Shown here: positions 2,665 through 9,225 of the stretch, piece after piece
How the letters are laid out: each line of letters begins with the position of its first letter
Position numbering within the stretch: position 1 is the stretch's first letter
NCBI GenBank assembly: GCA_017432825.1
Contig: JAFRIJ010000004.1
Coordinates: forward strand, 1 to 64,000
Direction of reading: 5' to 3'
Origin: Bacilli bacterium
GTDB taxonomy: Bacteria > Bacillota_I > Bacilli_A > RF39 > UBA660
DNA: 64,000 bases
Translations under genes and position numbers: made by a program
Notes under the pieces: generated by a model
Told to the model about the DNA's origin: nothing
Seen by the model: the letters and a program-made list of their open reading frames with translations, nothing else
Database searches by the model: none

Positions 2665-2697
2665 TTCAAGATTATTTCAAGAATATTTTATTAATAT
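2665..2697 (+). promoter_or_regulatory. OmpR-type direct-repeat box with -10 (site 1)
   Basis: Two TTCAAGA heptamers (2665-2671, 2676-2682) separated by TTAT, an 11-bp period. A -10-like TAATAT (2692-2697) begins exactly 9 nt after the second repeat. The identical 18-bp box with the same 9-nt gap lies upstream of the OmpR-family regulator gene at 7187. It probably places the surface-polymer cluster under that regulator. Confidence 0.7.
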
Positions 2698-2757
2698 TAA
2701 ATTATCAAAAAAAAGGAGGAATTATATCGAAAATAAACAATGTAATAAATAAAAATA

Positions 2758-2766
2758 TGATATAAT
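2758..2766 (+). promoter_or_regulatory. Extended -10 promoter before the VTC gene
   Basis: TGATATAAT about 50 nt before the VTC gene. It would be a second, box-independent promoter downstream of the TTCAAGA box. Confidence 0.55.
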
Positions 2767-2814
2767 TATATTAAGTAACTATATTTAAATAGTATCTAGA
2801 AAGTAGGTGATAAC

Positions 2815-3513
2815 ATTAAAAAATATCGTAACGAATGGAAATATAGTTTAACAAATGGAGAATTAACACTCTTAAAATCAAGAATAGAGGAGATAATGGA
2901 ATTAGATCCACATACTCCTCCCAAAGGAAGATATGTTATTCACTCACTTTATTTTGATGATTATAAAGACACATCGGTATATACAACAGAATCAGGATTA
3001 TCAAAAAGATTTAAGTGGAGAATTAGATATTATGATGAAGATTTAAATTATATTGTACTTGAAAGAAAAGAAAAAATAAATAGTAGATGTCACAAAAAAA
3101 GTTGTATACTTACATTAGATGAATATGAAAAAATAGTATCTGGTAATATAACAGACATTTTATATGATACAAACAAAAAATTAATTAAAGAATTAGCAAG
3201 AGATATAATGTTATATAACTACAAACCCAAAGTAATTATTGATTATGAAAGGATTGCTTATGTAGAAGAAATAACTAATGTAAGAGTAACTTTTGATATA
3301 AACATATCAGCATCGTATGATTTAGATCATTTTTTAGATAGAAATTATATTAAATACTATATAAATACAAAAGGAATAAATATTTTAGAGGTAAAATTTG
3401 ATGATATATTACCATCTTACATAAGAAGAATAGTAGAATCATATGGATTTAAACAAACATCTTTCTCAAAATATTATTATGGAAGAAAGATAATAGATTC
3501 ATATATGAGATAG
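2815..3513 (+). CDS. VTC-domain polyphosphate polymerase-like protein (AUU start proposed)
   Basis: A 232-residue protein with the VTC domain, the tunnel-shaped fold that makes polyphosphate in yeast Vtc4 and is found in bacteria beside CotH and DUF4956 genes. Basic and acidic tunnel motifs are visible: EWKY, SLYFDDY, RFKWRIRYY, LERKEK, VIIDYERIAY and ILEVKFDD. An ATG at 2896 would delete the conserved YRNEWKY opening strand. The upstream in-frame ATT at 2815 sits 4 nt after AGGTGA, the same spacing as in neighbouring genes, and restores it. Substrate is inferred from the family; it could bind another polyanion. Confidence 0.8.
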   Translation: MKKYRNEWKYSLTNGELTLLKSRIEEIMELDPHTPPKGRYVIHSLYFDDYKDTSVYTTESGLSKRFKWRIRYYDEDLNYIVLERKEKINSRCHKKSCILTLDEYEKIVSGNITDILYDTNKKLIKELARDIMLYNYKPKVIIDYERIAYVEEITNVRVTFDINISASYDLDHFLDRNYIKYYINTKGINILEVKFDDILPSYIRRIVESYGFKQTSFSKYYYGRKIIDSYMR

Positions 3514-3523
3514 GAGAATTAAA

Positions 3524-4186
3524 ATGATAGAAATATTTGAAAATATATTTAACACATATTCAAATGAGAGTATAACAACTATAACAATAATATCTGTATT
3601 ATTAATGGTATTATTCTTAGCAGTTTATGAATTTTTAGTTTATAGATTTGTTTCACACAGATCTTTCTATAACAAATCATTTAACATTACAATAGCAATA
3701 TTACCATTCTTTATATCAACAATAATATTATGTTTACAATCTAATATTATAATTACACTTGGTACAATTGGAGCTTTAGCAATTATTCGTTTTAGAACAG
3801 CAATTAAAGATCCAGTAGATATGCTATATTTATTATGGAGTGTATATATTGGTATAATATGTGGATGTCAATTATTTGAAGTAGGAGTATTAACATCAAT
3901 ATTAGTAACTATAGTATTAGTAGTACTAGATAATATTAATTTTGGAAGAAAACCATTTATATTAATTCTACATAGTAATGAAGATATAGAAAGTGAATTA
4001 ATAGATTCATTTAAAAATAAAAAGATTAGTAATAAATTTAAATCAAGAAATTATACAAATAAAGGCTATGACTATGCTATTGAATTAAGAACAAAAGATA
4101 TAGAAGGATTAAAAAGTGAACTATCTAATAATAAAAATGTAAGTAAATATTCTATTATTGAATATGATGCTGATGATATAGTATAA
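3524..4186 (+). CDS. DUF4956 membrane protein
   Basis: A 220-residue integral membrane protein with about four hydrophobic segments in its first 140 residues and a soluble C-terminal domain of about 80. The segment GALAIIRFRTAIKDPVDMLYLLW is the signature of DUF4956. No biochemical function is established. Family members usually sit beside VTC-domain and CotH proteins, as here, so a role in assembling or exporting an extracytoplasmic polymer is inferred. It lies 10 nt after the VTC gene and 1 nt before the next ORF. Confidence 0.85.
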   Translation: MIEIFENIFNTYSNESITTITIISVLLMVLFLAVYEFLVYRFVSHRSFYNKSFNITIAILPFFISTIILCLQSNIIITLGTIGALAIIRFRTAIKDPVDMLYLLWSVYIGIICGCQLFEVGVLTSILVTIVLVVLDNINFGRKPFILILHSNEDIESELIDSFKNKKISNKFKSRNYTNKGYDYAIELRTKDIEGLKSELSNNKNVSKYSIIEYDADDIV

Positions 4187-4187
4187 C

Positions 4188-4988
4188 ATGAATAAAAAAA
4201 GGTTATTTGGAATTATACTAATACTAACATATTTAGCTATAATAATAATCTTAGTACTTAATACCAGCATCAAATATAACACACTTATATTAAGTGAATC
4301 TGAATGGAATAAAATAATTAGTAATAGAAATATGAGTACTAGTATAAGTATTGAAAGTATAGAATTTAATGATTATAATTTATTAGTTGATAATAAAAAC
4401 AGTATTATTTATTATTCAGTAGTAAATTCTAATCATAAATATAATCCTTCAATTAAGTATAAAACAAACAAAAAAGTTAATATAAAAATAAATGGTAGTA
4501 TAACTGATGAAAAAATAGAACAAAGTGATAGCTTAAAAATAATTATATACAATAATAAAGAATATAGAATTTATTCATTAGTAGCAACAAATTATCCAAT
4601 TATAAATATAATTTATAAAGAAAATAAAAATGACACAAAGAAAATACCAATAGAATTAGAAATATTTGATAATCATACTCATTCAACACGAAGAGTAATA
4701 AAATCAGATGGAATTTTTAATATTATTGAAGAAAATAAAACATATGGTTTTTCTCTTATTAAGAAATCCTTAGGTAACAATAAAAGAGAGAATCATATAT
4801 CTATATTTAGTGAAGAAAAACAAGATGAATATATATTAAAACAAGTTGAATACACAATAGATAGTAGTGAAAGACATGAAAATAATATAAAACTATTTAT
4901 TAATAATAAATATATTGGCCTATATTCACTTAGACCTAAAGAAAGGAGGATAAATAATTTTGAACGAAACAAAGAAAACAATAGATAA
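4188..4988 (+). CDS. Membrane-anchored CotH-like protein (short, no kinase half seen)
   Basis: A 266-residue protein with one N-terminal membrane helix (residues about 6-26) and an extracellular domain. Its last third (HSTRRVIKSDGIFNI, then VEYTIDSS and IKLFINNKYIGLYSLR) resembles the start of the CotH fold, where an 'NGxYxGLY' hairpin precedes the nucleotide-binding core. The protein stops just after that hairpin, so the catalytic half of CotH is absent. It occupies the CotH position between DUF4956 and the beta-helix protein. The assignment is tentative; it may be a different extracellular domain. Confidence 0.5.
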   Translation: MNKKRLFGIILILTYLAIIIILVLNTSIKYNTLILSESEWNKIISNRNMSTSISIESIEFNDYNLLVDNKNSIIYYSVVNSNHKYNPSIKYKTNKKVNIKINGSITDEKIEQSDSLKIIIYNNKEYRIYSLVATNYPIINIIYKENKNDTKKIPIELEIFDNHTHSTRRVIKSDGIFNIIEENKTYGFSLIKKSLGNNKRENHISIFSEEKQDEYILKQVEYTIDSSERHENNIKLFINNKYIGLYSLRPKERRINNFERNKENNR

Positions 4989-6309
4989 AAAGAAACTAGT
5001 ATTTTATATTATAGGAATTATTATTTTAATATTTATGGTAATATGCTTCATGATAGCATTTAAAAATTATAATTCTAACTCATCATCAAAAACAACTAAT
5101 TCAAATACAAATAGTGAAAACTCAAATAATATATCTAGAAGTACAATAACAAAGGGAGGTAATTATAATATAACAGGTGATAACAGCTGTATTGTTATTA
5201 ACACAACCGATAGTGTAGAACTTTCTTTAAATAATGCAACAATAACTTGTGAAAACGGTCCTGCTATAAACGTAGAATCAGCGGGAAAATTAAGTATTAC
5301 TCTAACAGGTGAAAATAAAATTGTAGCAACTACAACAGAAGAATTAGATGCTGCTATTTATTCAAAAGATGACTTGATTCTATCAGGAACAGGGAGTTTA
5401 TCTTTAACATCTAATTATGATGGAATTGTTTCAAAAGACGATTTAGTTATTAATGGTGGAACATACACAATTAATTCAGAAGATGACGGAATAAAAGGAA
5501 GAGACAGTGTTCAAATAACAGATGGAACATTCAATATAACTACTGGTGGAGATGGCATAAAATCAACCAATGACGAAGATAAAGAAAAAGGATATATCAC
5601 TATTTCAGGAGGGACATACATAATAAACAGTATAAATGATGGTATTCAAGCAGAAACTAATTTAACAATAAAAAAAGGAACCTTTACTATTAAAACAACA
5701 GGAAATGCTGACAACGACTCAGCAAAAGGTTTAAAAGCTGTTACTCTAGTTACAATAGAAGCAGGAACTTATAATATTAACACAACAGATGATGGTATTC
5801 ATTCAGATGGAAATATAACCATAAATAAAGGTGAAATAACAATTAATTCAAAAGATGATAGTATACACGCTGATGGTATGGTAGAAATAAATGATGGAAC
5901 ATTCAATATAACAGCTGCTGAAGGAATTGAAGGAACTTATGTTAAAATTAATGGCGGAAAAATAAACATATCAGCAACTGATGATGGAATAAATGCTGGG
6001 AATAAATCTAATGCTTATTCCGTAAAAGTTGAAATAAATGGTGGAAATATAACAATCAAGATGGGACAAGGAGATACAGACGGAATAGATTCTAACGGAG
6101 ACATATATATAAATGGCGGAACAATAGATATAACAGCACAATCACCATTCGATTATGACGGCACAGCTAAATACACAGGAGGTACAATAATTGTAAATGG
6201 AACAACAACCAACCAAATAACTAATCAAATAATGGGAGGACCTGGTGGAAATATGAATGAAGGAGGTCAATCAAGTTCTAATAGAAGTCAAAATCGTGGA
6301 ATGAGATAA
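4960..6309 (+). CDS. Cthe_2159-type beta-helix carbohydrate-binding protein
   Basis: A 449-residue exported protein with one N-terminal membrane helix (about residues 12-33), a Ser/Asn/Thr linker, and a long array of roughly 20-25 residue coils repeating the pattern GTYxI...DDGI. This is the parallel beta-helix of the Cthe_2159 family, whose founding member binds cellulose and pectin and carries calcium sites; the paired Asp residues fit calcium binding. The C-terminus is Gly/Ser/Asn-rich. Translation begins at TTG 9 nt after AAAGGAGG and overlaps the upstream gene by 29 nt. Confidence 0.85.
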   Translation: MNETKKTIDKKKLVFYIIGIIILIFMVICFMIAFKNYNSNSSSKTTNSNTNSENSNNISRSTITKGGNYNITGDNSCIVINTTDSVELSLNNATITCENGPAINVESAGKLSITLTGENKIVATTTEELDAAIYSKDDLILSGTGSLSLTSNYDGIVSKDDLVINGGTYTINSEDDGIKGRDSVQITDGTFNITTGGDGIKSTNDEDKEKGYITISGGTYIINSINDGIQAETNLTIKKGTFTIKTTGNADNDSAKGLKAVTLVTIEAGTYNINTTDDGIHSDGNITINKGEITINSKDDSIHADGMVEINDGTFNITAAEGIEGTYVKINGGKINISATDDGINAGNKSNAYSVKVEINGGNITIKMGQGDTDGIDSNGDIYINGGTIDITAQSPFDYDGTAKYTGGTIIVNGTTTNQITNQIMGGPGGNMNEGGQSSSNRSQNRGMR

Positions 6310-6310
6310 T

Positions 6311-7138
6311 ATGTCTAAAAAAGGAAAAATAATAATATTGATATTAATAATTGCTTTGCTTATTTTTGTAATATATAGAAATAAAAATATTAGTAGTGAT
6401 TATAACTTTAAAATATATTTCTTCAATGCTGGAAAAGCAGATGCAATATTAATTTCCAAAAATAATAAATATATAATGATTGATACTGGTGAAGAATCAT
6501 TATCTAATAATATTTTAAGATATTTTAAAAACAATAACATAACAAAATTAGAATATTTAATTATAACCCATTTTGATAAAGATCACGTTGGTAGCGCATC
6601 AAGTATAATAGAAAATATTGAAGTAGGAGAAGTACTTCAAAGTAATTATCCAAAAGAAAGTGAATACTATACTAACTATCTTAACTCCCTTTCCAAAAAA
6701 TCTATTACACCAATAACCGTAATTGATAAATATGAATTATCATTAGAAGACGTAAATATAGTTGTAACTGGACCAAATAAAACATATGAAAATAGTGAAA
6801 GCAATAATTCTTCACTAATAGTATCAATTAACAATGGAAATAATAAATTTTTATTTATGGGAGATTCAGAGAATGCCAGAATAAAGGACTTTACTAATAG
6901 TAATACTGAAACTTATGATTTTCTAAAAATACCTTATCATGGTAATTATTTAAAAAGATTAGATAGTTTATTAGAAAATACTAACCCTAAATATGGGATA
7001 ATGACATGTTCATACGCCGAAGGATGTGAGGATGAAACGTTAGAAATATTAGATAAATACAATGTTAAATATTATATGACAAAAAATGGTTCAATCTCTG
7101 TATTATCAAACGGAAAAAATATAATCATAAAACAATAA
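6311..7138 (+). CDS. ComEC/Rec2-like metallo-beta-lactamase fold protein
   Basis: A 275-residue protein with an N-terminal membrane helix (about residues 5-21) and a metallo-beta-lactamase domain. Metal ligands are visible in ITHFDKDHVG; further conserved elements are IDTGEES, FMGDSE and KIPYHGN. It matches the soluble hydrolase domain of ComEC without the channel part. The single helix suggests anchoring outside the cell. It follows the beta-helix gene by 1 nt and ends the cluster. Its substrate is unknown; in this context a phosphate polymer or nucleic acid is possible. Confidence 0.85.
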   Translation: MSKKGKIIILILIIALLIFVIYRNKNISSDYNFKIYFFNAGKADAILISKNNKYIMIDTGEESLSNNILRYFKNNNITKLEYLIITHFDKDHVGSASSIIENIEVGEVLQSNYPKESEYYTNYLNSLSKKSITPITVIDKYELSLEDVNIVVTGPNKTYENSESNNSSLIVSINNGNNKFLFMGDSENARIKDFTNSNTETYDFLKIPYHGNYLKRLDSLLENTNPKYGIMTCSYAEGCEDETLEILDKYNVKYYMTKNGSISVLSNGKNIIIKQ

Positions 7139-7142
7139 AATT

Positions 7143-7172
7143 AGATTTAAGTATAAAACTTAAATCTTTTTT
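7143..7172 (+). terminator. Rho-independent terminator
   Basis: Perfect 9-bp stem AGATTTAAG/CTTAAATCT with a 7-nt loop and a T-run. It separates the polymer cluster from the two-component operon. Confidence 0.85.
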
Positions 7173-7186
7173 ATTAATTTAAATAA

Positions 7187-7219
7187 TTCAAGATTATTTC
7201 AAGATAACATTGATACAAT
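7187..7219 (+). promoter_or_regulatory. OmpR-type direct-repeat box with -10 (site 2)
   Basis: TTCAAGA at 7187-7193 and 7198-7204 separated by TTAT, identical to site 1. TACAAT (7214-7219) begins 9 nt after the box. It lies upstream of the response-regulator gene, which fits autoregulation. Confidence 0.7.
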
Positions 7220-7261: not shown

Positions 7262-7293
7262 AAGGAGGATGATAAATGAAACAAAAAAAATAG
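7262..7293 (+). other. Strong ribosome site followed by a five-codon ORF
   Basis: AAGGAGGA then ATG AAA CAA AAA AAA TAG. It lies between the box promoter and the response regulator. A similar AAGGAGGA followed by a degenerate ORF without an ATG lies at 2713 after site 1. This may be a leader peptide or the remnant of a small gene. Confidence 0.4.
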
Positions 7294-7336: not shown

Positions 7337-7345
7337 TGGTATAAT
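7337..7345 (+). promoter_or_regulatory. Extended -10 promoter
   Basis: TGGTATAAT 25 nt before the response-regulator start; probably the basal promoter of the two-component operon. Confidence 0.6.
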
Positions 7346-7370: not shown

Positions 7371-8051
7371 GTGAAAGTATTAATTATAGAAGATGAATAT
7401 AGCTTAGCAGATGCAATTAGAGAAATCTTAGAAAAAGAACATCTAGATGTTAAAATTGTTACTAATGGATTAGATGGAGAAGATGAAGCATTGACTAATA
7501 TATATGATTTAATATTACTTGATATTATGTTACCTAAAAAAAATGGTTTTGAAATATTAAAGACACTAAAAGAAGAAAAAATTAAAACACCTATTATTAT
7601 TTTAACTGCAAAATCAGAAATGAATGATAAATTAAATGGATTAGAAAACGGAGCAGATGATTATATAACTAAACCATTCCATATGAAAGAATTGCTAGCA
7701 AGAGTAAAGATAATACTAAAAAGAAGTGCAAATATTGAAGATACAAATATTTTATCATATGGAGATTTAACACTAGACTTATCAACAGGAAATTTAAAAT
7801 GTAATAATAACGAAGTTAGAGTAAACGGAAAAGAACTAAAATTAATAGAATTGCTTCTTATTAATAAAGAACAAATAGTTGCAAAGGAGGTATTAACAGA
7901 TAAAATCTGGGGATATGATAGTGAAGCAGAATATAATAGTGTAGAAGTATATGTATCATTTTTAAGAAAAAAAATAAATCTTTTAAAATCATCTGTTAAA
8001 ATATCAACAATAAGAGGAATTGGATATAAATTGGAGGCTAAAAATGATTGA
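7371..8051 (+). CDS. OmpR/PhoB-family response regulator
   Basis: A 226-residue DNA-binding response regulator. The receiver domain (1-115) has the acidic pair E7-D8, phospho-acceptor Asp51 in LILLDIMLP, and the TKPF lysine near residue 101. The C-terminal winged helix (about 130-225) shows ELKLIELLL, VEVYVSFLRKKI and the closing IRGIGYKL. It starts at GTG after AAGGTGA. It is paired with the overlapping kinase gene. Two TTCAAGA-N4-TTCAAGA boxes with the 11-bp period typical of this family lie upstream of this operon and of the polymer cluster, so both are likely targets. Confidence 0.93.
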   Translation: MKVLIIEDEYSLADAIREILEKEHLDVKIVTNGLDGEDEALTNIYDLILLDIMLPKKNGFEILKTLKEEKIKTPIIILTAKSEMNDKLNGLENGADDYITKPFHMKELLARVKIILKRSANIEDTNILSYGDLTLDLSTGNLKCNNNEVRVNGKELKLIELLLINKEQIVAKEVLTDKIWGYDSEAEYNSVEVYVSFLRKKINLLKSSVKISTIRGIGYKLEAKND

Positions 8052-9225
8052 AAAATTAAGAAAAAAAATATCTTTAATTATACTAATTGCAATATCAATT
8101 CCTCTATTGTTTATTATTATTTTTTATAATATTTCATATTATAATAACATAATTAGAGCTAATACTAAGTTTGTTGATAGATTTATTGGTGAACCTAATG
8201 GAGGACCAGTAGATAGAAGAGAAAATAAAATTGAATCATCAGAAATAAATGGAATATATTCTATTTCAATAAATAACGGTAATATATATAAATCAAGTAG
8301 TAATGTTACTGATAAGATAAAAAAATATGCTCTTAAAACAATTAATAAGAAAAATGAAAATGGAATAATAGGAAATTACATATATAAAAAAATAATCCAT
8401 GATAAAGATATAGCAATAATATTAATTGAGAGTTCAAGTGAAATTAATAAAATAAAAATGGTTATTATATCATCAATAATAGTATTAGTAATAGGGATTA
8501 CTATATTTTATATTATATCTAAAAAAATAGCTGAATTAATTGTAAAACCAGTAGAAGAAACATTTACAAAACAAATTGATTTTATTTCCGATGCATCTCA
8601 CGAATTAAAAACTCCTCTAGCAGTCATTAGAGCAAATGCTGATGTGTTAGAAGGAGAAATAGGGAAAAATAAATGGTTATCTTATATTCAAAATGAAACA
8701 GACAACATGACTAAACTTATAAGTGAATTATTATTACTCACAAAGATAGAAAACATAGATAAATTAAGAAAACCAGAAAGATTTAACATATCAGATCATA
8801 TTGAATTAACAGTATCATCTTTTGAAAGTATAGCATTTGAAAAAAAAATTAAAATTGAAACAAAAATACAAAAAGACATTATAGTAAATAAATTCAATAA
8901 AGATGATATTACTCATATTCTATCTACTTTAATAGATAACGCAATAAAACATACAGATGAAAAAAAGAAGGTAATAGTAGAATTAGAAAAAAACAAAGAT
9001 AAAATAATAATTGATGTAAAAAATAAAGGAATAGAAATACCTATAAGTGAAAGAGAAAAAATATTTGATAGATTCTATCGCATAGATAAATCAAGAAACA
9101 GAAATGAAAAAAGATATGGCTTAGGTCTTTCTATTGCAAAGGCAATTACATTAAAAAATAGTGGTACAATAGATGTTGATTATAAAGACGGATATACAAT
9201 ATTTAGAGTAGAATTACCACTATAA
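8044..9225 (+). CDS. Sensor histidine kinase
   Basis: A 393-residue membrane kinase, partner of the OmpR-type regulator it overlaps by 8 nt. It has a transmembrane helix near residues 9-29, a short extracellular sensor of about 110 residues, and a second helix near 140-160. The dimerisation domain has SDASHELKTP with phospho-His186. The ATPase domain has the N-box LIDNAIKHT, a G1 region reduced to KNKG as in many Gram-positive kinases, FDRFYRIDKSR and GLGLSIAKA. The start at 8044 follows a GGAGG. The signal sensed is unknown. Confidence 0.92.
   Translation: MIEKLRKKISLIILIAISIPLLFIIIFYNISYYNNIIRANTKFVDRFIGEPNGGPVDRRENKIESSEINGIYSISINNGNIYKSSSNVTDKIKKYALKTINKKNENGIIGNYIYKKIIHDKDIAIILIESSSEINKIKMVIISSIIVLVIGITIFYIISKKIAELIVKPVEETFTKQIDFISDASHELKTPLAVIRANADVLEGEIGKNKWLSYIQNETDNMTKLISELLLLTKIENIDKLRKPERFNISDHIELTVSSFESIAFEKKIKIETKIQKDIIVNKFNKDDITHILSTLIDNAIKHTDEKKKVIVELEKNKDKIIIDVKNKGIEIPISEREKIFDRFYRIDKSRNRNEKRYGLGLSIAKAITLKNSGTIDVDYKDGYTIFRVELPL

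Follow-up and report, generated by a model that had tools for sequence, protein, structure and literature searches.

A CiaR-type box predicted to link a two-component system with an envelope-polymer operon and htrA in a small A+T-rich genome of the Bacilli

In the 64,000-nucleotide stretch of DNA analyzed here (hereafter the window, with about 76% A+T), the 18-mer TTCAAGATTATTTCAAGA occurs at both 2665–2682 and 7187–7204, and the two copies are identical including their spacer. A third perfect copy is present on another contig of the same genome, before htrA. We propose that these three boxes are predicted binding sites of the OmpR-family response regulator encoded at 7371–8051, which together with its kinase would form a CiaR-type two-component system activating its own operon and an envelope-polymer operon, as well as htrA in this species. 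Judged from sequence, we assign this reading a probability of about 0.83.

Both boxes in the window lie on the plus strand, read TTCAAG-ATTAT-TTCAAG-A and stand upstream of an operon. Box 1 (2665–2682) precedes five genes, all on the plus strand, starting with a VTC-domain protein of the polyphosphate-polymerase type (2815–3513; PF09359, E 1.3e-34). An apparent ATT at 2815 is the only plausible start of this gene: after the in-frame stop upstream, ATG, GTG and TTG do not occur before the conserved N-terminus (2797–2820), which aligns with the homologue from another genome (G057), and the Shine-Dalgarno distance equals that of the GTG start of the response regulator. The VTC gene is followed by genes for a DUF4956 membrane protein (3524–4186; PF16316, E 2.8e-10), a predicted membrane-anchored protein (4188–4988) with no Pfam match and no homologue in the loci compared, a Cthe_2159-type beta-helix carbohydrate-binding protein (4960–6309; PF14262, E 2.5e-83) and a hydrolase of the metallo-beta-lactamase fold (6311–7138; PF00753) that resembles the C-terminus of ComEC, with ComEC_Rec2 scoring below the cut-off. 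Two flavodoxin-like genes, one of them a fusion with a cyclophilin-like domain, and one flavin-reductase-like gene are located just upstream of this cluster (568–2635). Box 2 (7187–7204) precedes the genes of the response regulator (7371–8051, plus strand) and of a membrane histidine kinase with HisKA and HATPase_c domains (8044–9225, plus strand). Exactly 9 nt after each box starts a -10-like hexamer, TAATAT at 2692–2697 and TACAAT at 7214–7219, both imperfect. The original prediction had placed the boxes and hexamers in just this way, and every position is borne out.

The response regulator belongs to the OmpR/PhoB family, its receiver (PF00072) and Trans_reg_C winged helix (PF00486) both scoring over the cut-off, while NCBIfam gives it no specific regulator name above the cut-off. 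Its recognition helix is CiaR-like: SVEVYVSFLRKKI compares with VVEVYVSKVRKKL in CiaR, the core VEVYVS..RKK being the same and the flanks different (VEVYVSFLRKK vs. VEVYVSKVRKK). In a maximum-likelihood tree of 95 regulator sequences, the regulator falls in a clade (support 96/97) that includes other VTC-linked regulators, and the genes of this clade often adjoin the VTC/DUF4956/beta-helix operon. Streptococcal CiaR (the named loci L254 and L262) is placed in a separate clade (99/96), which also holds box-bearing regulators of the window's own class; the joining of the two clades is poorly resolved. We therefore rejected the regulator as an orthologue of CiaR, since the tree sets it in a separate, supported clade. 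Full-length alignments of the kinase were obtained with several members of its own clade; with streptococcal CiaH the alignment is confined to the core (residues 130–391), and a CiaH-type sensor domain was not recognizable in the window kinase.

The tie between the response regulator/kinase operon and the VTC/beta-helix operon, first proposed from the window alone, is seen again in other families of the class. A search for VTC genes covered 395 genomes of the class, and 100 regions were scanned alongside regulator loci; in 1.56 Mb this gave 28 sites combining box and -10 vs. 1 for the reversed control. A strict box with its -10 precedes the VTC gene and/or the regulator gene at 10 of the 14 loci with a linked OmpR-type regulator, compared with 5 of the 89 VTC loci that have no linked regulator (Fisher p 1e-7, a generous value because related genomes are not independent). 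Four of these five boxed but unlinked genomes encode a regulator of a box-bearing clade elsewhere; the fifth locus is on a short contig, and the other member of its genus has a linked regulator. Four linked loci lack a strict box; degenerate versions were recognized in three of them, by eye and post hoc, and the fourth has an unlike regulator. Many bacteria of the class that are only distantly related thus have this arrangement of box plus operon, and related regulators have autoregulatory boxes upstream. In genomes of several families the box is also present upstream of a beta-helix gene, ABC transporter genes and genes for small membrane proteins. As a separate observation, in three genomes (G057, G070 and G078; loci L342, L355, L339, L341 and L356) a box stands before genes for MacB-like permeases or for a family of small membrane proteins, and these genes are further target candidates there.

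These data also bear on the question of which regulator reads the boxes. Another factor might bind them, either a second OmpR-type regulator or an unrelated protein, the neighboring two-component system being merely a target, and the genome does encode one other OmpR-type DNA-binding regulator (on contig G000:C8). That protein, however, has a dissimilar recognition helix (VTVYFKRIREK), and across the class the box accompanies regulators of two CiaR-like clades, some of which are boxed in their own promoter. We consider this alternative improbable and favor the adjacent regulator as the protein that would bind the boxes.

Two molecules of this regulator would occupy the same face of the DNA head-to-tail, each on one of the two TTCAAG half-sites, which have a period of 11 bp. 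Between the second half-site and the -10 there are 10 nt, so that the bound regulator would sit about where a -35 is expected, from where it may recruit RNA polymerase in the manner of streptococcal CiaR. An OmpR-type tandem site in place of the -35 had been part of the original prediction, and the sequence comparisons argue for it. Once activated by the kinase, the regulator would increase expression of its own operon, of the VTC/DUF4956/beta-helix/hydrolase operon and of htrA, presumably a small regulon for envelope maintenance; the VTC, DUF4956, beta-helix, hydrolase and HtrA products suggest envelope upkeep. The opposite sign of control, in which the regulator mainly represses because the box overlaps the promoter and the bound protein blocks polymerase, has a precedent in pneumococcus, where the CiaR target manLMN is under negative control (PMC8317062). 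By eye, neither -10 in the window has a good -35 at the proper spacing, so that the promoters look activator-dependent, and the 10-nt gap between box and -10 is that of strongly CiaR-activated promoters (PMC3091779); repression appears even less probable to us than binding by another factor.

Each operon has a second promoter-like site, so that activation through the box promoter need not account for all expression. Between box and gene, independent of the box, TGNTATAAT occurs at 2758 and 7337 within extended -10-like sites (TGATATAAT at 2758–2766 for the VTC operon, TGGTATAAT at 7337–7345 for the regulator operon, both on the plus strand), which could give basal expression; this motif is counted 21 times on the plus strand of the window and 7 times on the minus strand. 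The leader of the regulator gene further contains a strong Shine-Dalgarno sequence followed by a five-codon mini-ORF (MKQKK; 7263–7293), and a similar element, AAAAGGAGGA, is present at about 2711 in the VTC leader.

Activation of htrA is proposed from the third perfect box (G000:C6:36360–36377, minus strand), which a whole-genome search revealed outside the window. It overlaps the final bases of the preceding PAP2-like gene, TATAAT starts 9 nt after it and htrA lies 33 nt downstream. The spacing to the -10 is identical at all three boxes, and no other exact match exists in the 1.16-Mb genome, which at 93.5% completeness may lack an additional regulator or target. The earlier impression of no other intergenic copy thus holds within the window, where no further copy with fewer than three mismatches was found, and fails genome-wide; with a perfect box before htrA, autoregulation plus the cluster is not the whole regulon, as had been supposed. 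The box nevertheless does not occur in many unrelated places. An order-3 Markov model of the window (20 simulations, expressed per genome and for both strands) predicts 0 copies of TTCAAGA-N4-TTCAAGA where 3 are observed, and 0.05 matches to TTYAAG-N5-TTYAAG-N10-TANNNT where again 3 are observed, those of the regulator/kinase operon, the VTC operon and htrA, with 0 for the reversed-pattern control. Allowing one mismatch adds 3 genome matches, two of them within long open frames. That the boxes are chance repeats of a very A+T-rich genome, in which the pattern with up to three mismatches indeed occurs in the window at no more than chance frequency, is next to impossible given the near-zero expectation for exact copies, the near-zero counts of the reversed-pattern controls, the constant -10 spacing at three sites and the conservation of the box across families.

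The htrA box is absent from the orthologues in the relatives examined and from this genome's second htrA, and we therefore rejected htrA as an ancestral target. Being peculiar to this species among those relatives, it would have been recruited recently or have arisen by convergence with streptococci. The box is mostly kept in relatives that retain both operons, with a drifted half-site in some. A search for the exact TTCAAGA box in 60 relatives returned scattered matches only, a misleading result because the TTTAAG form is also in use. The window's own family keeps the architecture while its half-sites have drifted to TTTAAT or TTTAAC (L068, L249, L072 and L069–L071, before the regulator or a Cthe_2159 gene), and the helices there are of the LEAYLS type. 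The correlation between helix and box is suggestive only, as the sites ending in T or C all belong to one clade and may reflect a single event. It is conceivable, at somewhat less than even odds, that a CiaR-type regulator and its box drove one envelope-polymer operon across many families, and that the drift of the half-site within the window's family (from TTTAAG to TTCAAG here and to TTTAAT/TTTAAC elsewhere), alongside helix changes (VEVYVS vs. LEAYLS), represents a series of regulator–site coevolution.

With this work a likely regulator can be named for the VTC/DUF4956/Cthe_2159 operon and its promoter code becomes readable; we found no earlier account of the control of this operon in the literature searched. 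CiaR-type regulation is carried far outside the streptococci, into small genomes rich in A+T, in which targets predicted from the box can be tested directly, and the natural variants of the drifting half-site lend themselves to studying joint change of regulator and site. We found neither the half-site variant nor the conserved target operon described, and a full-text search combining the operon's terms with two-component systems gave no match; such absences are weak evidence, the coverage including few subscription papers.

The kind of mechanism is already known. Concerning the target operon, streptococci and clostridia have groups of accessory cotH, polyphosphate polymerase and DUF4956 genes adjoining their Pel loci (PMC7112168). 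There, too, VTC-type and DUF4956 genes are contiguous and linked to surface-polymer genes, whereas no Pel genes are seen in the window cluster; the passages of that study that were consulted mention neither a CiaR-type box nor a linked two-component system. Outside streptococci, the CiaRH homologue BAS0540-BAS0541 of Bacillus anthracis binds NTTAAG-N5-TTTAAG in gel shifts, and its box is present before its own gene, as here; the predicted regulon, as far as the consulted sections give it, differs (FtsA, a CAAX protease and efflux genes) and does not name the VTC operon (PMC4938410). The closest likeness is with CiaRH of Streptococcus, whose box TTTAAG-N5-TTTAAG lies 10 nt from the -10 (PMC3091779), has a third T and a final G in each half that are invariable in the csRNA promoters used for the consensus (PMC3091779), and has been mutated in S. 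agalactiae (PMC9603419). The VTC/DUF4956/beta-helix operon is absent from the portions of the published CiaR target lists that we compared (PMC3091779, PMC8317062). CiaRH also differs in its half-sites (NTTAAG-N5-TTTAAG vs. TTCAAG in both halves of all three sites here, with C replacing T at the third base of each half), in the separate clade of CiaR and in a CiaH alignable to the window kinase in the core only. Tandem hexamers with an N5 spacer, 10 nt from the second hexamer to the -10 at all three sites, and boxes before both its own operon and htrA are common to the two, so that by its sequence features the system described here probably works like CiaRH, yet is not classed as CiaRH.
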